Shown here: positions 23,411-47,073 of the stretch, in pieces
How positions within the stretch are numbered: position 1 is the stretch's first letter
How the letters are laid out: each line of letters opens with the position of its first letter
NCBI GenBank assembly: GCA_000230955.3
Contig: CP007060.1
Location: 1,178,001-1,242,000, forward strand
Source: Halobacterium sp. DL1
GTDB taxonomy: Archaea > Halobacteriota > Halobacteria > Halobacteriales > Halobacteriaceae
Reading direction: 5' to 3'
DNA length: 64,000 nucleotides
The notes under the pieces: generated by a model
What the model saw: the letters and a program-made list of their open reading frames with translations, nothing else
Database searches by the model: none
What the model was told of the DNA's origin: nothing
Made by a program: the position numbers and the translations under genes

Positions 23411-24220
23411 TTATCGACCACGCCACTCGGGGGTCCGGTCCTCGAAGAAGGCGTCGATGCCCTCGTCCTTGTCCGCCGTCGAGAACAGCTGCGCGAACAG
23501 CTCCGCCTCGTACTCGATGCCCGCCTCGAGGTCCATCCGGGAGGCCGCCTGCACGGCGTCCTTCCCGTACGCCAGGGCGACCGGACTGTTCTCGGCCATC
23601 GACGCCGCGAGGTCGGACACCGCGTCGTCGAACTCGTCGTCGCCGTACACGTCCTCGACGAGGCCGATATCCCTGGCCTCCGCGGCGTCCACGAGGTCCC
23701 CGGAGAGCACGAGTTTCATCGCCTGCCCCTCCCCAACGATTCGCGGGAGGCGCTGGGTCGCGCCGCCGCCCGGGATGATGCCGAGGTTGATCTCGGGGCT
23801 CCCGAGTTTGGCCCGCTCGTGGGCGACCCGGACGTCGCAGGCGAGCGCGAGTTCGAGACCGCCCCCCAGCGCGTGACCGTTCAACCGGGCAATCACGGGC
23901 TGGCGAACGTCTTCGACCGTCTCGTAGACGCGGGGCCGCTCGCTCGCTCGGCGCTGCTCGACGGCGTTCCGCTCGCGGAGTTCACTGACGTCGGCGCCAG
24001 CGACGAACGCCCCTGCGTCGTCGCTTCCCGTGAGAACCACGACCCGCGCGTCGCTCTCGTCGACGGCCGCGAACACTGCCTTCAGTTCCTCGCGGAGCGG
24101 CCCGTGCAGCGCGTTCCGCGCGTCCGGTCGGTCGATGGTGACCGTCGTCACGTGCTCTGGGTCGTTCTCCGTCACAGCCACGAACTCACAGTCCGCCGCG
24201 GTCTCGGCGACGTCGCTCAC
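23411..24220 (-). CDS. Enoyl-CoA hydratase (crotonase family, PaaF-like)
   Basis: 269 residues, GTG start. GHALGGGLELALACD and GSPEINLGIIPGGGATQRL contain both catalytic Glu residues of true enoyl-CoA hydratases. GAFVAGADVSEL supplies the oxyanion loop. The GTG overlaps the stop of the 3-hydroxyacyl-CoA dehydrogenase gene by 4 bases, so hydration and dehydrogenation are made together, as in beta-oxidation or the PaaF/PaaH steps of phenylacetate breakdown. Substrate inferred. Confidence 0.92.
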   Translation of the reverse strand: MSDVAETAADCEFVAVTENDPEHVTTVTIDRPDARNALHGPLREELKAVFAAVDESDARVVVLTGSDDAGAFVAGADVSELRERNAVEQRRASERPRVYETVEDVRQPVIARLNGHALGGGLELALACDVRVAHERAKLGSPEINLGIIPGGGATQRLPRIVGEGQAMKLVLSGDLVDAAEARDIGLVEDVYGDDEFDDAVSDLAASMAENSPVALAYGKDAVQAASRMDLEAGIEYEAELFAQLFSTADKDEGIDAFFEDRTPEWRGR

Positions 24221-25128
24221 GCCCCATCACCTCCGTCGTCGTGCCCGCTCGAGTCGAGGTCGCCACTCACTCCCCCTATCTCGCCGTCCTCCCAGACGTA
24301 GAACCCCTCGCCGGTCTTCTTTCCCAGTTTGCCTGCGCGCACTTTCCGCTTCAGAATCTGTGGCGGCCGGAACCGCTCCCCGAGCTCCTCGCGGAGGTGT
24401 TCGAGGATGTCCAGGCGCACGTCCAGGCCGACCACGTCGCCGAGTTCGATGGGGCCCATCGGGTGGTTGTAGCCGAGTTCCATCGACGCGTCCACGTCGC
24501 GAGGGCTGGCCACGCCCTCCTCGACCATCCGCATCGCCTCGACGCCGAGCGAGACGCCTAGCCGCGAGGACGCGAACCCGGGCGAGTCCTGGACTTCCAC
24601 GGCAGTCTTGTCGATGCCCTCGACGAACTCGCGGGCGAACGACAGCGTCTCTCCGCTGGTCTGCTCGGCGACCACCACTTCGACGAGCGCCATGATGTGG
24701 ACGGGGTTGAAGAAGTGGAGGCCGACGAACTGGTCCGGGTTCTCGAGGACCGACGCGAGCTCCGTCACCGGGAGACTCGACGTGTTCGACGCCAGCACGG
24801 CGTCGTCGGGTGCGGCACTCTCAGCCTCGCCCAGCACGGACTGCTTCAGGTCCACGTCCTCCGGGACAGCTTCCACGACGAGTTCGGCGTCCGCCACGGC
24901 CTCGTCGAGGTCGGTCGTCCCCGAGAGCCGGTCGAGCGTCGCGTCCCGCTCCGCCGGTGTCACCTTCTCCCGTTCGACGCCGCCCGCCAGGTTCGACTCG
25001 ATGGCGTCGAAGCCCTCGTCCACGATGTCCGCGTCCACGTCCCGGAGCGACACGTCGTGGCCCGCCATCGCGGCAACCTGGGCGATGCCGTGCCCCATCG
25101 TGCCCGCGCCGAGTACTGCGACCTTCAT
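24217..25128 (-). CDS. 3-hydroxyacyl-CoA dehydrogenase (PaaH/Hbd-like)
   Basis: 303 residues from ATG 25128. The NAD site is VAVLGAGTMGHGIAQVAA, with ASNTSSLPVTELA and the catalytic VGLHFFNPVHIM. The C-terminal YNHPMGPIELGDVVGLD and KKTGEGFYVW complete the single-fold Hbd type. It oxidises 3-hydroxyacyl-CoA to 3-ketoacyl-CoA. The last 20 residues are an acidic Gly/Asp tail. Confidence 0.95.
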   Translation of the reverse strand: MKVAVLGAGTMGHGIAQVAAMAGHDVSLRDVDADIVDEGFDAIESNLAGGVEREKVTPAERDATLDRLSGTTDLDEAVADAELVVEAVPEDVDLKQSVLGEAESAAPDDAVLASNTSSLPVTELASVLENPDQFVGLHFFNPVHIMALVEVVVAEQTSGETLSFAREFVEGIDKTAVEVQDSPGFASSRLGVSLGVEAMRMVEEGVASPRDVDASMELGYNHPMGPIELGDVVGLDVRLDILEHLREELGERFRPPQILKRKVRAGKLGKKTGEGFYVWEDGEIGGVSGDLDSSGHDDGGDGA

Positions 25129-25213
25129 GCCACGGCCTTCCCCACGAACCGTGAAAAAGCTAGGAGAAGGTGTTCTGTGCGGGCCGTTCCTCGGGCAGTA
25201 CGCGTCGGGGCTG

Positions 25214-27049: not shown

Positions 27050-28240
27050 ATGGAAGTGAGCGAACGCGTCCCGTGGGACTCTCCCACCGTCCGGGTGGTG
27101 CTGCTCGGCACCGCGATGGCGCCACTCGGCGTCCCACTGCTCAGCCCCGCACTGCCCGCCTTCCGCGACCAGTTTCTGCTCACGGACGCACAGGCAAGCC
27201 TCCTCGTCTCCACGTATTTCCTCGCGGGCATCGTGCTCTCTCCGTTCCTCGGCGCCTTCGCCGACCGGTACGGCCGCCGCCGCCTGCTCGTCGGGTCGCT
27301 CGTCGTCTTCTCGCTCTCGGGCACGAGCATCGCCCTCTCGCCGCCGTTCTGGACCGTCATCGCCGTCCGTGTGGTTCAGGGAACCGCTGCCGCGGGCCTG
27401 TTCGTCTCCACGGTGACGCTCGTCGGCGACACGTTCGAGGGTGTCCAGCGGAACGCGGTCCTCGGCGTGAACACCGCCGTGCTCTCGGCGGCGGCCGCCG
27501 TCTACCCGGTCGTCGGGGGCCTGCTCGCCGGCGTCGCCTGGAACGCGCCCTTCTTCGCGTACCTGCTTGCACTCCCCGTCGCCGGCGTCGCGTGGCGCGT
27601 CCTGCCGACGGAGGTCGGTATCCCGCAGCGCCCGGGCTACCTCGCCGCGATGGCGCGCGTGGCGACCTCGACGGGCGCCCTCGGCTTCTACGCCGCCACC
27701 CTCCTCACCGAACTCCTCCTGTTCGGCGCGATATTCACCGCGCTCCCGTTCCTCCTCGTCGACGACTACGCGTCCTCCGCCGTGGTCGTCGGTCTCGTCA
27801 TCACTGCCGCGGAGGTCGTCTCCACCGCCGCCGCCGCGCTCAACGGCCGCCTCGCGCACCGGGCGAGCAACGCCACCCTCGTTCGCGCGGGCATCGCGGT
27901 GTACGCCGTCGGACTGCTCGTCGTCCCCTTCGCCGTCTCCCCGGTCGGCGTCGCAGCGGGCGCGAGCATCGCCGGCGGTGGCGTCGGCCTCGTACTCCCG
28001 TCCGTCGACGCCGGCCTCACCGACCACGTCCCCGCGGACCTCCGCGCCGGTGCGCTCAGCCTCCGCAACAGCGTCACATTCCTCGGCCGCGCCAGCGGCC
28101 CCGTCGCGTTCGCGGCGCTCGCGGGGTCTGTCGGGTACGACAGTCTGTTCACCCTCGCCGGAGTGGTCTCGCTCGCAGTGGTCGCGGTCGTTACCGCCGC
28201 CGCTCGTTGGTGGGGACGACCTTCGCGCCGTACCGTCTGA
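27050..28240 (+). CDS. MFS transporter
   Basis: 396 residues with twelve hydrophobic segments. The loop 2-3 signature GAFADRYGRRRLLVGSL is intact, as is the RVVQGTAAAGLF segment of helix 4. The family moves drugs, sugars or metabolites by proton antiport or symport. Its 3' end runs 50 bases into the convergent HMGCS-like gene. Confidence 0.9.
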   Translation: MEVSERVPWDSPTVRVVLLGTAMAPLGVPLLSPALPAFRDQFLLTDAQASLLVSTYFLAGIVLSPFLGAFADRYGRRRLLVGSLVVFSLSGTSIALSPPFWTVIAVRVVQGTAAAGLFVSTVTLVGDTFEGVQRNAVLGVNTAVLSAAAAVYPVVGGLLAGVAWNAPFFAYLLALPVAGVAWRVLPTEVGIPQRPGYLAAMARVATSTGALGFYAATLLTELLLFGAIFTALPFLLVDDYASSAVVVGLVITAAEVVSTAAAALNGRLAHRASNATLVRAGIAVYAVGLLVVPFAVSPVGVAAGASIAGGGVGLVLPSVDAGLTDHVPADLRAGALSLRNSVTFLGRASGPVAFAALAGSVGYDSLFTLAGVVSLAVVAVVTAAARWWGRPSRRTV

Positions 28241-29621
28241 CGCCCTCCTGCTCGTACAGCAGGCGCGGCACGGCCACCACCTCGTCGCCGATGCCGGGCG
28301 CGTCGTCGCCCGCGAGCACGACCTGCACCGGGACGCTCACCGACCCGCTTTCGACGCCGTCGAACGCCACGATGGCACTCGCGTACTCCCCAGCGCGGGC
28401 CTGCTGCGGGACGAACTCCGGCGGCGCGCCGCCCTGCGAGATGGTCGTCACCGCCTCCACTGTGCCCCGCTTCGAGAGCGGTGTGTCGTCGTAGCCCTCG
28501 CTCGCGCCGCACTCCGTGCACGCGCCCTCCGGCGGGAACCGGAGCGCGCCACAGGCCCGGCAGCGTCCGGCCACCAGACGGTGGCGCTGCGGGAGCGTGC
28601 GGCGGTAGGACGGGACACTGACGTACGCCCCGCCGCCCTCCGGGACACCGGAGTCGAACGCGCCGCACCGCCGCTGGGCCGCCGCGAAGTCGAGGTCTCG
28701 GTCGCCCGCGACCGTCCGTCTGACCGGAATTTCACCACCCTCAACCCGGAACGCGTGCGCCGCGCCACCGCTACCGTACGTGACGACCAGTATCGTCTCG
28801 CTACCGTCGGCGACCGCGTCGGCGAAGCCGAGCAGCGCGCTCGCAGCGCCCGCGTCGCCTACCTCATCCGCGACGGTGCCGGCGGCCACCGTCTCGCTGT
28901 CGAGACCGAGCGCTCTCGCGGCGCGGTACGGCAGGTCGCCGTCGGGGGCCTGCAGCGCCGCGGCGTCCGGGTCGTTCGCGCCGCCGAGTTCGTCGACGGC
29001 GCCCGCGACGGTCTCGCGGTAGGCCTCCCGGTCGTAGGCGGTCACGCCGAGTCCCGTCGTCTCGTCGCTGCCGCGCTTCCTGAACCGGGTTCCTGGGTAG
29101 GTGGCGGTGTACGACGAGCGGTCGGTGACGGCTCCGGGGCTGTCGGGCGCGCAGACGATTGCACAAGCCCCCGCCCCGGCAGCGTGCCCGACAGCCTCGT
29201 CAAGGGCCCCCTGCGGGCAGTCCGCAGCGACGACCAGCGCTACGCCACCGCCGTCGAGCGCCGCCGATAGCGCCTCCCCGCCCGCAGCGGTGCTGCCGCC
29301 GAACTGGCTCGTTCGGGTGGTCTCCCCGACGCCGAGCAGGCTACCGAGTCGGCCGCTGCCGGCCTCCTCGTCGTACGGGAGCGTCGTGGACGCGAGGAAC
29401 AGCGCGTCCACGCTCCCCGCCTCGTAGCCCGCCGCGTCGAGGGCGCGCTCGCCGGCCTCCGCGGCCATCGTGAGCGCGTCCTCGTCGGCGTCCGGCACGG
29501 CGACCGAATCGACGCCGCGCGCACGGAACCGGCCCAGGGCGTCCTCGACCTCCGCGGCCGACAGTCGGAACCGGGGGACGTACGCGCCGACACCCGCGAT
29601 TGCAGAGTTCTCCGCAGTCAT
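28191..29621 (-). CDS. HMG-CoA-synthase-like protein fused to DUF35 (zinc ribbon + OB fold), catalytic residues absent
   Basis: 476 residues. Residues 1-300 follow the archaeal HMG-CoA synthase/KAS III fold (AIAGVGAYVPRFRLS, then LQAPDGDLPYRAARALG). The catalytic positions are changed: ASTT replaces the Glu-bearing strand, FGGSTAAG (107-114) replaces the Cys motif, and Gln224 stands where the family has His in HQPNGK. Residues 351-372 form a zinc ribbon (Cys354, 357, 368, 371), followed by an OB fold to the end. DUF35 proteins bind CoA and bridge thiolase and HMGCS in archaeal complexes. The thiolase gene lies upstream on the same strand. This fusion is probably a structural or substrate-holding partner of that thiolase (inference). 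Confidence 0.88.
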   Translation of the reverse strand: MTAENSAIAGVGAYVPRFRLSAAEVEDALGRFRARGVDSVAVPDADEDALTMAAEAGERALDAAGYEAGSVDALFLASTTLPYDEEAGSGRLGSLLGVGETTRTSQFGGSTAAGGEALSAALDGGGVALVVAADCPQGALDEAVGHAAGAGACAIVCAPDSPGAVTDRSSYTATYPGTRFRKRGSDETTGLGVTAYDREAYRETVAGAVDELGGANDPDAAALQAPDGDLPYRAARALGLDSETVAAGTVADEVGDAGAASALLGFADAVADGSETILVVTYGSGGAAHAFRVEGGEIPVRRTVAGDRDLDFAAAQRRCGAFDSGVPEGGGAYVSVPSYRRTLPQRHRLVAGRCRACGALRFPPEGACTECGASEGYDDTPLSKRGTVEAVTTISQGGAPPEFVPQQARAGEYASAIVAFDGVESGSVSVPVQVVLAGDDAPGIGDEVVAVPRLLYEQEGVRRYGAKVVPTNERRR

Positions 29622-29679
29622 GCCTTCCCCTCCCGCGCGTTGCGCGGTCGGTTTCGCGTTCGCAAGCTCACGCGACTTC

Positions 29680-29700
29680 CGTCAGAGCTTTGCTCTGACG
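29680..29700. repeat. Perfect 9-base hairpin with 3-base loop between thiolase and DUF35 fusion genes
   Basis: The arms CGTCAGAGC and GCTCTGACG flank TTT. It lies in the 106-base gap of an otherwise close gene pair on the minus strand. It could be an mRNA processing or attenuation element, or a remnant of a dispersed repeat. No T-run follows on the minus strand, so an intrinsic terminator is unlikely. Confidence 0.5.
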
Positions 29701-29727
29701 ACGTCTCGCTCGCTCGTTGATGCTCGC

Positions 29728-30885
29728 TCACGAGACTCCCTCCAGGAGCGTGACGACCGCCGCACCGCCGCTTCCGCCGACGTTGTGCGCCAGTCCAAGT
29801 TGCGGGTCCTCGACCTGCCGCTCTCCGGCGTTCCCGGTGAGCTGTTTCCACAGTTCGACGACCTGTCCGGCGCCGGTCGCGCCGATGGGGTGGCCCTTCG
29901 CCTTCAGGCCGCCGGAGACGTTCACGGGGAGGTCGCCGTCCGCGTCGGTGACGCCCTCGCGCAGCAGTTCCGGGGCCTCGCCGCGCCCGCAGAAGCCGAG
30001 GTCTTCGTAGGCGAGCAGTTCCGCGATGGCGAAGCAGTCGTGGACCTCCGCCAGGTCGACGTCTTCCGGTCCCGCTCCGGCCATCTCGTAGGCCGCGTCC
30101 GCCGCGTTCTGGCTCGCTGGTATCGACGTGTAGCTCTCCCGCTCGAAGAGGCCGACGCGGTCGCTCGCGGCGCCGACGCCCGCGACTCTCGCGGTGTCCT
30201 CGAACTCGGCGGCAACGTCCTCGCTGGCGACGAGGACGGCGGCCGCGCCGTCGCTGGTCGGACAGCAGTGGTAGAGCGTTAGCGGGTCCGCGACCGTCGC
30301 GCCGCCGCTCGCGTCTTCGAGCGAGCACTCGAAGCCGAGGTGCGCGTGGGGGTTCTTCGCGGCGTTCGCGTGGTTCTTCACGGCCGCCCGGGAGAGGTCG
30401 TCGACGGCGGCGTCGTACTCGTCCACGTAGGCGCTCGCCATCTGGGCGTAGGTGCCCGCGAACGTCGTCCCAGTGAGGCGCTCCCACTCCGTCTCGCCGC
30501 TGACGCCGAGCCAGTACTTCGCGGCGTCGCCGCTCAGGTCCGTCATCATCTCGTAGCCGCCCGCGATGACGACATCGGCCATCCCCGACTTCACGGCCTG
30601 TACGGCGTTCCTGACCGCGTAGCCGCTGGCCGCGCAGGCGTTCTCCACGCGGGTCGTCGGCACGGAGAGCCCGGCGTGTTCGGCGACGGCGGGTCCGGAG
30701 AGACCGATCTGTCGGCCGCCGACGCCGAGCGTTCCTACGACCGCTTCGTCGACGTCTGCCCGGTCGAGTCCGTCGGCGCTCGCCAGCGCGCGCTCGACGG
30801 CGGTGGCGAACAGCGAGCGGTAGGACTCCCCGGGGAACGCCCCGAAGGCGGTCTGGCCCGCGCCGACGACGTAGGCGTCTCGCAT
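29728..30885 (-). CDS. Thiolase, SCP-2/archaeal acetyl-CoA acetyltransferase type
   Basis: 385 residues. The nucleophile Cys84 lies in RVENACAASG. EVHDCFAIAELLAYEDLG carries the His of SCP-2-type thiolases, and GGLKAKGHPIGATGAGQ the second His. HNVGGSGGAAV is the C-terminal loop, which in this subgroup lacks the third Cys. It should condense or cleave acyl-CoA units. The DUF35 fusion gene follows 106 bases downstream, as expected for thiolase/DUF35 partners. Confidence 0.93.
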   Translation of the reverse strand: MRDAYVVGAGQTAFGAFPGESYRSLFATAVERALASADGLDRADVDEAVVGTLGVGGRQIGLSGPAVAEHAGLSVPTTRVENACAASGYAVRNAVQAVKSGMADVVIAGGYEMMTDLSGDAAKYWLGVSGETEWERLTGTTFAGTYAQMASAYVDEYDAAVDDLSRAAVKNHANAAKNPHAHLGFECSLEDASGGATVADPLTLYHCCPTSDGAAAVLVASEDVAAEFEDTARVAGVGAASDRVGLFERESYTSIPASQNAADAAYEMAGAGPEDVDLAEVHDCFAIAELLAYEDLGFCGRGEAPELLREGVTDADGDLPVNVSGGLKAKGHPIGATGAGQVVELWKQLTGNAGERQVEDPQLGLAHNVGGSGGAAVVTLLEGVS

Positions 30886-31397: not shown

Positions 31398-31859
31398 ATG
31401 GCGTACAGCTACGAACCCCACTACTTCGAGGAGTTCGAGGAGGGGGAGACGTTCGAGAGCGTCGGCCGCACAGTGACGGAAGCTGACTTCACGTTCCACT
31501 CGATGTTCACCGGGGACTGGACGGAACTCCACTCCAACGCGGAGTACGCCGCCGACCAAGAGTTCGGCGAGCGCGTCGCCCACGGCCCGATGACGTTCGT
31601 GCTCGCCACCGGGTTCGTCTACCGTTGTGGCTTCCTCGAGCGCCGCGTCATCGCGTTCCTCGGGATGAACTACATGGACATCCCCGCGCCGGTGGCGATG
31701 GGCGACACCATCTCCCTGGACATGGAGGTCACGAAGACGAAGGAACTCTCCTCGCGGGACGACGCGGGCCTCGTCGTCATCGACACGGAGATGACGAACA
31801 GCGACGGGGAGACCGTCTTCTCGGGGGACATGAAGTTCCTCGTGAAGCGCGACCGATGA
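31398..31859 (+). CDS. MaoC-like hot-dog dehydratase
   Basis: 153 residues. The hydratase motif appears as FTGDWTELHSNAEYA (catalytic Asp and His) and the substrate loop as GERVAHGPMTFVLATG. Such R-specific hydratases add water to enoyl-CoA; PaaZ also carries a MaoC-type domain in phenylacetate breakdown, but no such link is shown here. The stop overlaps the next start as ATGA. Confidence 0.9.
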   Translation: MAYSYEPHYFEEFEEGETFESVGRTVTEADFTFHSMFTGDWTELHSNAEYAADQEFGERVAHGPMTFVLATGFVYRCGFLERRVIAFLGMNYMDIPAPVAMGDTISLDMEVTKTKELSSRDDAGLVVIDTEMTNSDGETVFSGDMKFLVKRDR

Positions 31860-36414: not shown

Positions 36415-38141
<1,727 letters not shown>

Positions 38142-38145
<4 letters not shown>

Positions 38146-39053
38146 ACCTCACAGAACCACCCGAGTGGGCGGGCACGTCGTCGGACCCGAACGACGAGCA
38201 GTTCGGGGACGTGATAGAGGCCGCGATACCCGAGACGGCGACGGACTACGACGCCGTACTCGTCGGCGAACCGTACGACGGCGCCGTCATCGGTCGGAAG
38301 GGTGCGGCAGGCGGACCGGCCGCGGTCCGCGAGGCGCTCGCGGGCGTGAAGAGCCACCACTTCCAGACGGGAGCGGTCAACGCTCTCGGTGACCTGGGTG
38401 ACGTCGATGTGGACGCCGACAGCGTCTCGGAGGCACAGGGAGCGTTCCAGGACGCCGCCCACCGCGTCCACGACCTGGGCGCGTTCCCCGTCTTCGTCGG
38501 CGGCGACAACTCGCTGTCGTACGCCAACGCCAGCCCGCTGCTCGACCGCGGGTCGCTCGGCGTCGTGAGTTTCGACGCCCACCTCGACTGCCGGGAGGTC
38601 CGGGGTGAGCCGTCCAGTGGCACGCCGTACCGGCAGCTGTTCGATGAGGGTCTCGACGCGCTCGCCGTCGTCGGCGCGCGCCACTTCGAGACCAGCACGC
38701 GGTACGCCGACTACATCGACGAGCAGGGCGGCAGCGTCGTCACTTCGGAGACCGTCGGCGCGGACCCCGGCGGGGCGCTCGACGCCGCGCTGGCCGCGAT
38801 GGCCGACGTCGACCAGGTGTACGTGAGCGTGGACATCGACGTGCTCGACGCCGCTTACCCGGGGTCAAGCGCGCCGACGCCGGGCGGCATCGAGCCGCGC
38901 GAACTGTTCCGCCTCGTGCGCCGCATCGCTGGCCGCTCGCGGGTCGCCGGCTTCGAAATCGTCGAGACGGCGCCGTCGCTGGACACGGAGGGACGCACGG
39001 TCGACGCGGCCGCGAGAACGATCGCGCACTTCCTCGGAGGCTACCATGGCTGA
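38142..39053 (+). CDS. hutG: Formimidoylglutamase (arginase family)
   Basis: 303 residues. Manganese ligands are visible in SFDAHLDC (Asp145, His147, Asp149) and [13 protein letters not shown]. The first arginase motif reads GGDNS with Asn123 where most family members have His, leaving one Mn position altered or shared by this subgroup. It hydrolyses N-formimidoyl-L-glutamate to glutamate and formamide, so the pathway skips tetrahydrofolate. Coupled to hutU (4-base overlap) and hutI (8-base overlap). Confidence 0.93.
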
Positions 39054-40269
39054 CCTGCAGACGGTCGTCCACGGCGCCGCCGAAGTGGTCGTCGGTCCGG
39101 ACGACGAGGGCGCCCTCCGGAGCTACGAGGACGGCGCAGTAGCCGTCGTCGACGGGAGCGTCGCGATGGTTGGCGCCAGCGAGGACGTGACCCGCGAGTA
39201 CCCCGCGGAGAACGCCGACACCGCCGTCGAGGCGTCCGGGAAGACGGTGATTCCGGGGTTCGTCGACCCACACACCCACGCGCTGTTCGCGGGCGACCGC
39301 TCCGACGAGTTCGCGAAGAAGCTCCGCGGGAAGCCCTACCAGGAGATTCTCGCGGAGGGCGGCGGCATCCTCCGCACCGTTGGAGCCGTCCGCGATGCCA
39401 GCGACGACGAACTCGTCGCGAATCTCACCGAGCAACTGGACCTGATGCTCGACCACGGCACGACCACCGCGGAGGTCAAGACCGGCTACGGGCTGGACAC
39501 GGAGACGGAGCTCCGGATGCTCGACGCCATCGAGCGCGCTGCCGCCGACCACGCGGTCGACGTGGTGGCGACGTTCATGGGCGCCCACGCCACGCCGGAC
39601 GGGATGGACGCCGCGGACTACGTCGACGAGGTCGTCGAAGAGCAACTGCCAGCGGCCGCCGAACGCGGTAGCGCGGCGTTCTGTGACGTGTTCTGCGAGG
39701 AGGGCGTGTTCACCGTCGAGCAGTCCCGACGCATCCTGGAAGCGGGCCGCGAGCACGGCATGAAACCCAAGATTCACGCCGAGGAGTTCACCCGCCTCGG
39801 GAGCGCCCAGCTGGCCGCCGAACTCGGCGCGGTGAGCGCCGACCACCTGCTGCACGCCAACGAGGAGGACGCCGAGGCGCTCGGGGACGCGGGCGTCACA
39901 CCCGTTCTCCTCCCCGGCACGGCGTTCTCGCTGGGCGAGTCCTACGCAGACCCCGAGCAGTTCCAGGCGGCGGGAGCGCCGGTCGCGCTCGCCACCGACC
40001 TCAACCCGAACTGCTACAGTCAGAGCATGGGGTTCGCGGTCGCCCTGGCTTGCAACGGGATGCGGATGACGCCCGCGGACGCGCTGCTCGGGGCGACGAC
40101 CCACGCTGCGCGCGCCATCGACCGGTCGGACGGCACGGGGACGCTCCGCGAGGGAGCGCCCGGTGACGTCGCCGTCGTAGATGGGCCGAGCCACGTTCAC
40201 GTCCCGTACAACTTCGGCGTGAACGCCGTCTCGACCGTCCTCAAGGACGGGGAGGTCGTGCGTGACTGA
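39046..40269 (+). CDS. hutI: Imidazolonepropionase
   Basis: 407 residues. [16 protein letters not shown] holds the HxH metal pair, KTGYGLD lines the substrate, KIHAEEF and HLLHANEED give further His ligands, and [13 protein letters not shown] the catalytic Asp. It hydrolyses imidazolone-5-propionate to N-formimidoyl-glutamate. Starts inside the hutG end and overlaps hutH by 8 bases. Confidence 0.96.
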
Positions 40270-41833
40270 GGTCGTCGTCGACGGCGAGACCCTGACGCCC
40301 GAGGACGTCGAGGCTGTCGCCCGGGACGGCGCCACGGTCCGGATAGCCGACGAGTCTCGCGAGGACGTCCGGCGCTCCCGCGAGCGCGTGGCGGACGTCC
40401 TCGAGTCGGGCGAGGCCGTCTACGGCGTGAACACCGGCTTCGGTCAACTCGTCGACACGCAGATTCCCCGCGAGGACCTCCAGGCGCTCCAGACGAACCT
40501 GCTGCGGAGCCACGCCGCGGGCGCGGGCCACGAACTCGAACGAGAGGCGGTTCGCGCGCTCATGCTCACCCGACTGAACGCGCTCGTCAAGGGCTACTCC
40601 GGCATCCGCGAGGTGGTCGTCGACCTGCTCACAGCGATGCTCAACGAGGGCGTCCACCCGGTCGTGCCCTCCCGCGGGAGTCTCGGCGCGAGCGGCGACC
40701 TCGCCCCGCTCGCCCACACGAGTCTCGTGCTCATCGGAGAAGGGGCTGCTGTGGTGGGTGGTGAACGTCTACCAGGCGAGGAGGCGCTCGCTCGCGTCGG
40801 CCTCGAACCCGTCGCGCTGGAGGCGAAAGAGGGGCTCGCGCTCATCAACGGCACGCAGCTAACGGCGGCCCTGGCGGCGCTCGCCCTCCTCGACGCCGAG
40901 CGGGCGCTCCGCGCGGCGGACGCCGCGGGCGCGCTCACCACGGAGGTCACGCTGGCGACGACGGCGAACTGCGACCCGAACATCCAGCGCGTGCGGCCCC
41001 ACGACGGCCAGTCGGCGAGCGCGCGCAACGTCAAGCGCCTCACCGAAGGGTCCGAAATCGTCGAGAGCCACCGGAACTGCGACCGCGTGCAGGACGCCTA
41101 CTCGATTCGCTGTCTCCCGCAGGTCCACGGCCCCGTCCGGGACGCGCTCGCGCACCTCCGGGAGGCCACCGAGGTGGAGCTGAACAGCGCGACTGACAAC
41201 CCGCTCGTCTTCGACGCCGACGGCGTCGACCCGCGGGCCAGCGGCACCGACTCGGCGGCCGTGCTCTCGGGGGGCAACTTCCACGGCGAGGTGCTCGCGC
41301 TCCGTCTCGACTACGCGACCAGCGCGCTCACCGAACTCGCCGCCATCAGCGAGCGCCGCGTCGACCGGATGCTCAACCCGAACGTCCAGGAGGACCACCT
41401 GCCGCCGTTCCTCACCGAGCACAGCGGCCTCCACTCGGGGCTGATGATCCCCCAGTACACGGCCGCGTCGCTCGTCAACGACCTCCGCTCGCTGGGCAGG
41501 CCGTCGACGGACAACGCGACCGTCTCCGGCAACCAGGAGGACCACGTCAGCATGAGCGCCGGGAGCGCGCTCGGCTTCCGCGAGGCCGCCGAGAAGACCG
41601 CATCGGTGGTCGGCGTCGAACTGCTCTGTGGCGCGCAGGCCAGCGAGTTCCTCGACGACGACCTCGACCACGCCGCCGGCACCCGCGCCGTCTACGACCT
41701 CGTCCGGGAGGTCTCGCCACCCGTCGAGGAGGACCGCTCGCTTGCCGACGAGATGGACGCCATCGCGGACCTGGTCACCGGGGGACTCGTCGACGAGGCC
41801 GTCGAGCGTGCACTCGGCGAGCGACTGGAGTGA
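40262..41833 (+). CDS. hutH: Histidine ammonia-lyase
   Basis: 523 residues from GTG 40262. The MIO prosthetic group would form from Ala143-Ser144-Gly145 in RGSLGASGDLAPLAH. YGVNTGFGQLVDTQI, NSATDNPLVF and QEDHVSMSAGSALGFR are hallmark motifs. It removes ammonia from L-histidine to yield urocanate, the first pathway step, although it is the last gene of the operon. A hairpin plus T-run follows 6 bases after the stop. Confidence 0.97.
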   Translation: MTEVVVDGETLTPEDVEAVARDGATVRIADESREDVRRSRERVADVLESGEAVYGVNTGFGQLVDTQIPREDLQALQTNLLRSHAAGAGHELEREAVRALMLTRLNALVKGYSGIREVVVDLLTAMLNEGVHPVVPSRGSLGASGDLAPLAHTSLVLIGEGAAVVGGERLPGEEALARVGLEPVALEAKEGLALINGTQLTAALAALALLDAERALRAADAAGALTTEVTLATTANCDPNIQRVRPHDGQSASARNVKRLTEGSEIVESHRNCDRVQDAYSIRCLPQVHGPVRDALAHLREATEVELNSATDNPLVFDADGVDPRASGTDSAAVLSGGNFHGEVLALRLDYATSALTELAAISERRVDRMLNPNVQEDHLPPFLTEHSGLHSGLMIPQYTAASLVNDLRSLGRPSTDNATVSGNQEDHVSMSAGSALGFREAAEKTASVVGVELLCGAQASEFLDDDLDHAAGTRAVYDLVREVSPPVEEDRSLADEMDAIADLVTGGLVDEAVERALGERLE

Positions 41834-42885: not shown

Positions 42886-43653
42886 TTAGGTGTCGAACTC
42901 CGGCTCCCGGCCCTCGAGGAACGCCGTGACGCCCTCTGCGTGTTCGTCGGTGTCGTAGGCCTGGCTCTGGAGGAGGTTCTCGTGGTCGAGCGCGTCGCCC
43001 CACTCGCGGCCGAGGTTGTCGTGGAGCGCCTGCCGGATGACGCCGATGGTCCGGGTGGGCCGCTCGCGGAGCGTGTCGAGCAGCGCGTCCACTGCGTCGT
43101 CGAGTTCCTCTGCGGGCACCGCCTCGTTGACGAGGCCCAGGTCCGCTGCTTCGTTCGCGTCGACGAACTCGGCGGTGAACGCGAGGCGCTTCGCTTCGCG
43201 GAGGCCGACGAGGCGGGGCAGCAGGAAGCTCCCGCCAGTGTCCGGGACGAGGCCGACGCGGACGAACGCACAGGAGAAGCGAGCGTCGGGGACGGCGTAC
43301 GCGAAGTCCGAGAGCGCGACCACCGCGAGGCCCGCGCCGACCGCGTCGCCGTTCACGCGGGCGACGATGGGGACGCGGGACTCCATCGCGGCCTCCGCGA
43401 GTCGGCCGAACGTCCGCTCGACGCGCTCGTATGCGTCGCGGACGTCCTCCTCGCGGGCGGCCATCGACTGGATGTCGCCGCCCGCGGAGAACGCGCTCCC
43501 CTCGCCCGTGAGGAGAATCGCGTCGTGGGTCTCGGGGTCGGCGGACTCGATTGTTTTCGCGAGGTCCGCGGCGAGGTCGGTGGTGAACGCGTTCTTCACC
43601 TCGGGTCGGTCGAACGTGACGCGCAGGACGCCGTCGTTCGTCTCGGTGTGCAT
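42886..43653 (-). CDS. paaG: Enoyl-CoA hydratase/isomerase, PaaG-like
   Basis: 255 residues. The segment CAFVRVGLVPDTGGSFLLPR matches PaaG, with Asp in place of the second hydratase Glu, as does the C-terminal EGVTAFLEGREPEF. GSAFSAGGDIQSM is the oxyanion loop. PaaG isomerises ring-1,2-epoxyphenylacetyl-CoA to the oxepin-CoA. It lies 950 bases from paaA, beyond the divergent HTH_10 gene, supporting the assignment. A generic enoyl-CoA isomerase is the alternative. Confidence 0.8.
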   Translation of the reverse strand: MHTETNDGVLRVTFDRPEVKNAFTTDLAADLAKTIESADPETHDAILLTGEGSAFSAGGDIQSMAAREEDVRDAYERVERTFGRLAEAAMESRVPIVARVNGDAVGAGLAVVALSDFAYAVPDARFSCAFVRVGLVPDTGGSFLLPRLVGLREAKRLAFTAEFVDANEAADLGLVNEAVPAEELDDAVDALLDTLRERPTRTIGVIRQALHDNLGREWGDALDHENLLQSQAYDTDEHAEGVTAFLEGREPEFDT

Positions 43654-44604: not shown

Positions 44605-45543
44605 ATGGACATCGAGACCGTCAAACAGCGTGCCGGCCCCCGGGAGTTCAGCCCGGCGGACGACCTGCCCCGGGAGTACCGGGAGGCCGCTACGCGCATG
44701 ATTCAGTTCCACGCCAACAGCGAGGTGATGGGTGGCTACCTCGACAAGGCGTTCACACGAATGGCGCCCTCGATCGACCGCAAACTCGCCTGCACCGCGA
44801 AGTGCCAGGACGAGATCGGGCACGCCCAGTTGCTCTACCGGGCCGCCGAGACCCTCGGTGTGAAGTCCCGCGAGCAGATGCTCACCGAACTCGAAGAGGG
44901 CGACGGGAAGTTCCTCAACTGCTTCCACTACCCAGTGGACAGCTGGTACGAGGCGCCGATGATCGACTTCTTCGTCGACGGCGGGGCGATGCGACGGCAG
45001 GCGACATTGAAGAACACGTCCTGGGAGCCGTACGCCCACGCGATGGACAAGGTCTGCTTCGAGGAGGGATTCCACGTCAAGCACGGCGAGGACATCCTCC
45101 GCGAACTGATGCGCTCCTCGAAGGCGAACCAGGAGCGCACACAGGAGGTGTTCGACGAGTGGTGGCCGCGCATCCTCCAGTTCTTCGGCCCGACGAACGA
45201 CGAGTCTCGCCACGACGACTTCGCCCAGCAGGTCGGCCTGAAGACGGTCTCGAACGACGAACTCCGCAACTCGTTCCTCAACATGTACGTGCCGAAGGCC
45301 GAGAAGTATGGCCTCGAGATTCCGGAGTATCCGCGCATCTTCGAGCGCGACGACGGCACGATGGCAGTCCGGGAAGACGACCTCGACTGGGACGAGTTCT
45401 GGACCATCGCGAAGAACGACTACGAGGGGAGCCACGAACAGATCGGCAGCCGGCGGCGGCGTCACGAGGCCGTCGCGTGGGTGCGCGATTCGATGGACGA
45501 GTGGGAGACCGGCGCTGCGGGGAGCCCGCAGGCCGCCGACTGA
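44605..45543 (+). CDS. paaA: Phenylacetyl-CoA epoxidase subunit PaaA (catalytic)
   Basis: 312 residues. The diiron motif CQDEIGHAQLLY (Glu70 and His73) follows a first Glu near residue 40 (ANSEVMGGYLDKAF). FDEWWPRILQFFGP and a C-terminal DWDEFWTIAKNDYEGS are PaaA-specific. With PaaC it forms the core that adds oxygen to the ring of phenylacetyl-CoA to make the 1,2-epoxide. It heads the operon paaABCD plus zinc ribbon. Confidence 0.96.
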   Translation: MDIETVKQRAGPREFSPADDLPREYREAATRMIQFHANSEVMGGYLDKAFTRMAPSIDRKLACTAKCQDEIGHAQLLYRAAETLGVKSREQMLTELEEGDGKFLNCFHYPVDSWYEAPMIDFFVDGGAMRRQATLKNTSWEPYAHAMDKVCFEEGFHVKHGEDILRELMRSSKANQERTQEVFDEWWPRILQFFGPTNDESRHDDFAQQVGLKTVSNDELRNSFLNMYVPKAEKYGLEIPEYPRIFERDDGTMAVREDDLDWDEFWTIAKNDYEGSHEQIGSRRRRHEAVAWVRDSMDEWETGAAGSPQAAD

Positions 45544-45545
45544 CC

Positions 45546-45866
45546 ATGATCTGGGAAGTGTTCCGCCAGGAGAAGACGGGCGACCGCCACACGCACTGCG
45601 GGAACGTCCACGCGCCGGACCGCGAGATGGCGCTCATGTTCGCGCAGATCCAGCACGGCCGGCGGATGCAGACGCACTCGCTGTGGGTCGCGCCGAAGGA
45701 CGAAATCGCGGAGGTCGACGCCGACGAGGCGGAGTTCGGCGGCACGACGGACAAGGCCTACCGCTGGGCCATGACGTACAACAACATCGACGCGAGCTTC
45801 GCCGAGGAGGTCGCCGAGAGCGAGGCCGAGCAGGAGGAGGCCGCCCAGAAGCGGGGTGACGTCTGA
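45546..45866 (+). CDS. paaB: Phenylacetyl-CoA epoxidase subunit PaaB
   Basis: 106 residues from ATG 45546, 2 bases after paaA. IWEVFRQEKTGDRHTHCGNVHAPD and SLWVAPKDEI match the PaaB family. The acidic C-terminal tail (about 25 residues) is longer than in bacteria and typical of halophilic proteins. PaaB bridges PaaAC dimers and possibly PaaE. Stop and next start overlap as TGATG. Confidence 0.95.
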   Translation: MIWEVFRQEKTGDRHTHCGNVHAPDREMALMFAQIQHGRRMQTHSLWVAPKDEIAEVDADEAEFGGTTDKAYRWAMTYNNIDASFAEEVAESEAEQEEAAQKRGDV

Positions 45867-46675
45867 TGCCGGGCGACTCGCCAGACAGCGACCTGTCACC
45901 CGAGGAGGCCCAGCTGCTCCGGCTTGCCGACGACGAGTTCGTGCTCGCCGAGCGGTACACGGAGTGGCAGATCTACGCGCCGACCGTGGAGTCCGACCTC
46001 GCGCTCGCGAACATCGCGCAGGACGAGTTCGGCCACGCGCGCCTCTGGTACGACCTGATCCAGGAGGAGTTCGGCTACGAAGAGTCGGAGCTCGTCTGGG
46101 AGCGAGCGCCCGACGACTTCCGACACAGCACGCTAGTCGAACTCGAAACGCCCGAGGGGGATTGGGCGGACACGGTCGTCCGCGGCTACCTCTACGACGT
46201 TGCCGAGCGCCTGCGACTGGACGCGCTCGCCGACTCCTCGTACGAACCTATCGCCGACCGCGTGCCGAAGGTCCAGGGCGAGGAGTCCTACCACCGCGAG
46301 CACGCCCAGTCGTGGCTCGACCGCCTGACCGGCAGCGGGGAGTCCCACGACCGCGTGCAGGCCGCCGTGAACCGCCTGTTCCCCTACGCGCTGACGCTGT
46401 TCAGCGATACCGAACACGAGGCCGAGATTCTCGACGCTGGCGTCAGAACCCGTCCGCTGTCGGACCTGCGTTCGGACTGGCTGGACGAGGTCGTGTCGTA
46501 CCTCGAGTCACTCGATATCGCGGTTCCCCACCCCGCCGACACCGAGCGACCGGACGCCGTCGGCCGGGACGGCACGCACACCGCGGACTGGGACGCGCTC
46601 CACGAGGAGTTCACCGCGACGTACCACGAACTCGGCTTCGACGAACCGGCGACGCTCCGGGGTGAGAACGCGTGA
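45866..46675 (+). CDS. paaC: Phenylacetyl-CoA epoxidase subunit PaaC (structural)
   Basis: 269 residues. It has the ferritin-like four-helix fold with AQDEFGHARLWYDLI (Glu54, His57) and SYHREHAQSWLDRL. PaaC is the scaffold partner of PaaA. The C-terminal GFDEPATLRGENA overlaps paaD by 4 bases (GTGA). Confidence 0.94.
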   Translation: MPGDSPDSDLSPEEAQLLRLADDEFVLAERYTEWQIYAPTVESDLALANIAQDEFGHARLWYDLIQEEFGYEESELVWERAPDDFRHSTLVELETPEGDWADTVVRGYLYDVAERLRLDALADSSYEPIADRVPKVQGEESYHREHAQSWLDRLTGSGESHDRVQAAVNRLFPYALTLFSDTEHEAEILDAGVRTRPLSDLRSDWLDEVVSYLESLDIAVPHPADTERPDAVGRDGTHTADWDALHEEFTATYHELGFDEPATLRGENA

Positions 46676-47073
46676 GCGCCCCGACCGGTGACGCCTGCGC
46701 GCACACCGACTACGAGGACGGCGAAGTCCCCGAGGGCTTCCCGAACACGGGCGCTGGCGCGACTGGAGCCGAGGCCGAGGTCTGGGCGGCGCTCGCGGAG
46801 GTCGAGGACCCCGAGATGCCGGTGTCCATCGTCGACCTCGGCCTCATCTACGACGTGCGCGTCGACGGCGACCACGCGACTGTCGAGATGACGCTGACGT
46901 ACACGGGCTGTCCGGCGAAGGACATGCTCACGAACGACGTGCGCTGCGCCGCCCTCACTGCGTCCGGCGTCCGTGACGCCGACGTGGAGATACAGTACTC
47001 GCCGCCGTGGTCGGTCGAGATGGTGACCGAGGCGGGCAGAGAACAGCTCCGGGAGTTCGGACTGAGCGTATGA
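46672..47073 (+). CDS. paaD: PaaD N-terminal domain only (DUF59/MIP18 type)
   Basis: 133 residues from GTG. VEDPEMPVSIVDLGLIYDVR and TYTGCPAKDML (Cys80) define the DUF59 domain that assists iron-sulfur or diiron maturation of the epoxidase system. Bacterial PaaD continues into a C-terminal zinc ribbon; here the protein ends, and that ribbon is the separate next gene, overlapping as ATGA. Confidence 0.93.
   Translation: MSAPTGDACAHTDYEDGEVPEGFPNTGAGATGAEAEVWAALAEVEDPEMPVSIVDLGLIYDVRVDGDHATVEMTLTYTGCPAKDMLTNDVRCAALTASGVRDADVEIQYSPPWSVEMVTEAGREQLREFGLSV

Follow-up and report, generated by a model that had tools for sequence, protein, structure and literature searches.

In the archaeal thiolase/HMGCS/DUF35 complex, DUF35 joins an acetoacetyl-CoA thiolase and a hydroxymethylglutaryl-CoA synthase (HMG-CoA synthase, HMGCS), which share one CoA site (PMC12329534). 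In PhlABC, the MAPG acetyltransferase (5M3K/5MG5), PhlA has Gly (Gly115) at the catalytic Cys position, Cys (Cys83) at the Glu position and Gln at the His position, and catalysis is carried out by PhlC residues only (PMC6392133); the 2010 account of phlABC described an "active as well as inactive" thiolase-superfamily pair with DUF35 and already noted DUF35 fusions to thiolase-superfamily proteins (PMC2954200). Here we report on a 64,000-nucleotide stretch of the Halobacterium sp. DL1 genome (contig CP007060.1, positions 1,178,001 to 1,242,000; hereafter the window), in which all three modules are present and encoded together, as an HMGCS-like/DUF35 fusion and an SCP2-type thiolase. We consider it reasonably probable that this pair is a two-component beta-ketoacyl-CoA thiolase which in this haloarchaeal clade cleaves a phenylacetate-type 3-oxoacyl-CoA, i.e. 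takes the role of PaaJ.

With the Methanothermococcus thermolithotrophicus complex (6ESQ) the locus shares modules, folds and adjacent genes, and 6ESQ provides the best structural match to the fusion as well as the best relative of the thiolase, whereas its HMGCS is catalytic (Glu82, Cys114), forms a chain separate from DUF35 and serves the mevalonate pathway. In the true HMGCS operons sampled HMGCS precedes the thiolase, while the haloarchaeal pair has the reverse order. PhlABC resembles the pair in having a triad-less PhlA, a catalytic thiolase-like PhlC and the DUF35 protein PhlB, but it consists of three separate proteins and performs a Friedel-Crafts acyl transfer in antibiotic synthesis. 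MucABC of Streptococcus macacae (9VBO) likewise is a multi-component complex that combines HMGCS-like and thiolase-like subunits, although it comes from a different organism and the identity is 18%. The benzoylsuccinyl-CoA thiolase BbsAB (7PXP) is a thiolase of aromatic degradation that also works with a DUF35 partner; it has no HMGCS-like domain, and the score of the window protein for BbsA is 22 bits, with the cut-off at 250 bits. Finally, PaaJ, the 3-oxoadipyl-CoA/3-oxo-5,6-dehydrosuberyl-CoA thiolase, corresponds to the pair in proposed reaction and pathway position but is a classical thiolase, with 26% identity over 340 amino acids between a haloarchaeal PaaJ-like protein and the window thiolase; to our knowledge PaaJ needs no DUF35/HMGCS-like partner. 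The overall design is already known, with PhlA as precedent, and the fusion is a variant of it. A preliminary description of this DNA had read the fusion as a degenerate scaffold serving the thiolase; the pairing of an HMGCS-like/DUF35 scaffold with a thiolase that retains its catalytic residues stands, while the precedent of a triad-less partner had not been foreseen.

The fusion protein and its partner thiolase

The fusion gene (28191..29621, minus strand) encodes 476 amino acids, with an HMGCS-like region (residues ~6-294), a zinc ribbon (344-374) and an OB fold (~377-470). In profile searches residues 6-294 matched NF003274 (E 6.7e-42, 143.7 bits, under the 244-bit cut-off) and TIGR00748 (85.5 bits, under the cut-off of 353.35), and residues 344-374 matched zf-ChsH2; profile comparison also matched the DUF35 chains 6esq_E and PhlB. 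The zinc-ribbon cysteines C354, C357, C368 and C371 (28509..28562, minus strand) are invariant across 32 diverse homologues.

In an alignment of 105 proteins and two PDB rows, the catalytic Glu, Cys and His columns of HMGCS are occupied in the fusion by Thr79 (29385..29387; position derived from the start of the open reading frame, ORF), Thr111 (29289..29291) and Gln224 (28950..28952), all on the minus strand, while every true archaeal HMGCS sampled keeps Glu, Cys and His. The replaced residues and their motifs (ASTT, residues 77-80; FGGSTAAG, 107-114; Gln224, within LQAPDG) agree with the preliminary description, with the Cys equivalent now refined to Thr111. Pairwise alignment instead places Gly109 in the Cys slot. 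In the HMGCS fold the catalytic Cys is located just before a helix, and in an AlphaFold2 model (single chain, 32 homologues) Thr111 directly precedes the corresponding predicted helix 113-124. The model (pLDDT 88.2, pTM 0.90; linker 328-341 between the two halves poorly predicted) has the HMGCS-like fold plus zinc-ribbon/OB domain of the thiolase/HMGCS/DUF35 complex type. Its top Foldseek matches were the 6ESQ HMGCS (chain I), with a target-normalized TM of 0.85, and PhlA, with 0.80, and the MucABC acyltransferase was also matched (TM 0.79). Neither the triad nor the curated cut-off scores thus place the fusion among the archaeal HMG-CoA synthases, and a separate HMGCS (PF08540) is encoded elsewhere in the genome. 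The retained fold, the four-Cys zinc ribbon with its OB domain and the distinctness from the mevalonate enzyme were all anticipated in the earlier reading.

The thiolase (29728..30885, minus strand, 385 amino acids) is of the SCP2 type as judged by its Thiolase_C_1 domain (PF22691, E 2.8e-44) and its catalytic residues Cys84, His282, Cys284 and His332, a full set of which only Cys84 had been pointed out before. Its nearest solved structure is the thiolase of 6ESQ (E 6e-86). The four residues are also kept in the counterpart thiolases, with 11 Asn/Ala variants in a group of 57; classical thiolases encoded at the same loci seem to be among the 57, and their presence would explain the variants. 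An Ltp2/Sal-type DUF35 aldolase, with altered active site and retro-aldol cleavage, was rejected since the residues match those of the 6ESQ thiolase. The genome encodes five SCP2-type thiolases (PF22691) versus one strong classical thiolase; at two of the other SCP2-type loci a zinc-ribbon match adjoins the thiolase gene.

Distribution of the fusion family

At a threshold of E at most 1e-10 the fusion was found in 182 of the 292 haloarchaeal genomes sampled. The preliminary description had proposed looking for the pair in other haloarchaea, and it is indeed common there, with the thiolase gene first and overlapping the fusion gene by 4 nucleotides (nt) in nearly all loci. When named genomes were scanned with archaeal and sphingomonad relatives as seeds, stretches encoding such a protein numbered at least 565. 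The 80 top-ranking loci, with 82 ORFs, belong to Chloroflexota/Dehalococcoidia, Desulfobacterota, Syntrophobacterales, Actinomycetota, Methanoliparum and Methanolliviera, among other groups. In none of these 82 ORFs, nor in any haloarchaeal fusion examined, is the Glu site occupied by Glu or the Cys site by Cys, and in 76 of the 82 a thiolase lies within 300 bases on the same strand. The His slot varies among fusions (Gln, Thr, Phe or Tyr), and His itself is present at a same-genus locus (L047) and in several more distant haloarchaeal members. As judged from these alignments, the universal losses within the family are therefore those of Glu and Cys only, not His, and the loss is a family-wide trait; local gene decay was rejected on the same ground. 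The Cys slot is by far most often Thr in haloarchaeal fusions and mostly Leu, Ile, Val, Met or Phe in relatives. Another nucleophile in the HMGCS-like site, named beforehand as the finding that would overturn the scaffold reading, was looked for, and no conserved one appeared in either the 105-protein alignment or the 82 ORFs.

In a quick tree (triad columns removed; unrooted, so that it gives no direction of change; PhlA and 6ESQ rows partial and taken from the pairwise alignment) the haloarchaeal fusions form one group and most other archaeal and bacterial fusions a second, while PhlA, represented by its partial row, branches with true HMGCS and apart from the haloarchaeal fusions (SH-aLRT 98%). 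Shared ancestry of the fusions with PhlA, apart from true HMGCS, was therefore rejected, and the triad loss in PhlA looks independent of that in the fusions. In Halorientalis litorea and in a same-family genome (loci L086 8992-10367 and L142), the HMGCS-like and DUF35 parts appear to be encoded by separate genes beside a thiolase, and these sequences fall at the edge of the haloarchaeal group. Two sphingomonad megaplasmids (L085, L092) carry a full-length fusion, ~29% identical, plus a thiolase; one of these loci is near SDR genes, the other near acyl-CoA dehydrogenase, MaoC and CoA ester lyase genes. Three loci (L124, L125, L126) from a non-haloarchaeal family of the phylum encode a triad-intact HMGCS with an extra N-terminal region of ~155 residues, possibly another type of fusion.

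Phenylacetate genes and the proposed role of the pair

Several genes of phenylacetate type lie ~20 kb or less from the pair in the window. Conserved neighbours are the genes for a MaoC/PaaZ-C-terminal-like hydratase (31398..31859, plus strand, divergent from the pair), a PaaH-like 3-hydroxyacyl-CoA dehydrogenase (24217..25131, minus strand) and a PaaF-like enoyl-CoA hydratase (ECH; 23411..24220, minus strand). Moreover, there is a PaaG-like isomerase/hydratase (42886..43653, minus strand; best match TIGR02280, under its cut-off), and family profiles point to the phenylacetyl-CoA epoxidase genes paaA to paaD (44605..47073, plus strand): paaA (44605-45543, just under the family cut-off with 260 vs 280 bits), an ORF in the paaB position (45546-45866, placed by position alone), and paaC (45866-46675) and paaD (46672-47073), both above their cut-offs. 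On plasmids of Haloferax mediterranei, Haloarcula sinaiiensis and Halorubrum ezzemoulense the pair sits between paaK/paaI/MaoC and PaaH/PaaF-like genes, with paaABCDE additionally present in Haloarcula sinaiiensis, and many further haloarchaeal neighbourhoods repeat the arrangement. All three plasmid loci also have a classical thiolase; in three other paa clusters (L055, L059, L062) the pair is present and no classical thiolase was found in the stretch examined. Several families have paaK directly beside the pair, and two of the genomes concerned belong to the window's genus. Haloarchaeal PaaD (NF041868, threshold E below about 1e-45) was detected in 133 of the 292 genomes, and 131 of these also have the fusion (Fisher p ~3e-37, from genome lists transcribed by hand, for related genomes and uncorrected for phylogeny, hence not a calibrated probability). 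Within the window's genus, both fusion and PaaD are present in five sampled genomes and both are absent from four, and a further one shows no more than a weak match to the fusion. The pair is thus linked in genomes to paaABCD and paaK, as the PaaJ role would imply, though no paaK was found in the DL1 genome itself.

Published expression data are consistent with this link. When Haloferax alexandrinus was exposed to silver, transcripts of cds129-134 increased along with those of paaABCD (PMC10694973, Table 3); cds129-134 are labelled enoyl-CoA hydratase, paaH, "pksG hydroxymethylglutaryl-CoA synthase", "paaJ", paaK and paaI, and the authors took cds131 as an HMG-CoA synthase for membrane biogenesis (PMC10694973). 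Another strain of this species has the matching order ECH, HAD, fusion, SCP2 thiolase, paaK and thioesterase, with no classical thiolase in its matching 25-kb stretch, and the strain BNX82 protein corresponding to cds131 is without the Glu, Cys and His of the triad. From the gene order, cds131 and cds132 are apparent orthologues of the fusion and the thiolase, and the published pksG/HMG-CoA synthase label of cds131, whose orthologue lies at L236 11965-13533, looks like a misannotation.

In the reading that we favour, the SCP2-type thiolase would perform the chemistry with Cys84 as nucleophile, and the fusion would contribute, on a single chain, a DUF35 domain and an HMGCS-like domain without catalytic function; jointly these two domains would form the interface that binds CoA and keep the complex together, on the model of the archaeal thiolase/HMGCS/DUF35 complex and of PhlABC. 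The substrates would be 3-oxo-5,6-dehydrosuberyl-CoA and/or 3-oxoadipyl-CoA, cleaved as by bacterial PaaJ. For this pair we infer complex formation, CoA binding, reaction direction and substrate. The preliminary description had proposed a two-gene machine for condensing or cleaving acyl-CoA; the pairing holds, and the gene context, which it did not foresee, favours cleavage in phenylacetate or related acyl-CoA catabolism. More tentatively, and a little short of an even chance, the pseudo-HMGCS-DUF35 chain may be a non-catalytic half without which a widespread two-gene thiolase does not work; the thiolase would replace or supplement PaaJ in the haloarchaeal phenylacetate pathway, and the chain would have lost its triad independently of PhlA.

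Several observations weigh against a PaaJ role. The fusion occurs without strong PaaD in 51 of the 182 haloarchaeal genomes that carry it, so a strict tie between fusion and phenylacetate was rejected, and several clades place the pair with acyl-CoA ligases, acyl-CoA dehydrogenases, UbiD or TRAP genes; the substrate therefore probably differs among clades. Many paa clusters also carry a classical PaaJ-like thiolase, and the one strong classical thiolase of the DL1 genome, encoded elsewhere, is 51% identical to the haloarchaeal PaaJ-like thiolase. A PaaK orthologue was not found in this genome, where phenylacetyl-CoA could instead derive from phenylalanine via oxidative decarboxylation of phenylpyruvate. 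In addition, the RNA-seq link depends on a gene-order match between two strains, and the induction came from silver stress, not growth on phenylacetate.

The 51 genomes and the apparent lack of PaaK also speak for the same two-component thiolase acting in general fatty-acid or other acyl-CoA beta-oxidation, the phenylacetate link then reflecting mere clustering of catabolic genes; relatives in Halostagnicola, Natrialba, Desulfobacterota, Chloroflexota and Methanoliparia indeed lie beside acyl-CoA dehydrogenases, CoA ligases, HAD, ECH or CoA transferases without paa genes. The near-constant presence of the fusion in PaaD genomes, the direct adjacency of paaK and the parallel induction of paa genes and the apparent orthologues argue for the phenylacetate role, and we regard general beta-oxidation as the unlikelier account, at perhaps one chance in a handful. 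A PhlABC-like acyltransferase or condensing enzyme forming a C-C bond in biosynthesis is improbable: PhlA, likewise triad-less, comes next after archaeal HMGCS in the structure ranking, and MucABC is another multi-component acyltransferase with such a subunit, but the grouping of PhlA with true HMGCS, the catabolic surroundings and the lack of an annotated polyketide synthase in the neighbourhoods read speak against it. That the fusion retains HMG-CoA synthase or other condensing activity through a different residue such as Thr111, for which one could cite the prevalence of Thr in haloarchaea and the published treatment of the apparent orthologue, is very improbable, given the additional loss of the Glu slot and scores far under the HMGCS equivalog cut-offs, because the Cys slot is aliphatic in most relatives and because another HMGCS in the genome makes a backup role unlikely.

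Databases list family members under the names HMG-CoA synthase, ACP synthase, "zinc ribbon" protein or "OB-fold" protein, and a full-text literature search found no paper that identifies the fusion as an intended component of the phenylacetate pathway. If the proposed role is correct, the HMG-CoA synthase/membrane-lipid annotation would be wrong, haloarchaeal phenylacetate clusters would obtain a thiolase candidate, and a family of hundreds, many in anaerobic bacteria, would gain a testable role as a dead enzyme retained as CoA-holding partner. A 2026 survey called archaeal phenylacetate configurations incomplete and defined the archaeal class by epoxidase subunits, not PaaJ (PMC13186573); the pair would therefore fill the thiolase role without directly answering the point of that survey.

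Gene spacing and other features of the window

Between thiolase and fusion the window has a spacer of 106 nt (29622..29727) with a perfect hairpin (29681-29700; CGTCAGAGC..GCTCTGAC). The hairpin has one copy in the genome and was accordingly rejected as a dispersed repeat. Among the haloarchaeal loci compared, such a spacer was seen only in the window species; in a sister species, with a fusion 85% identical, the two genes abut. Finally, an apparent histidine-degradation cluster lies at 36415-41833, with urocanase (PF01175) and an aromatic amino acid lyase (PF00221) confirmed, and with two genes between them that resemble hutG and hutI and are putatively assigned as such.

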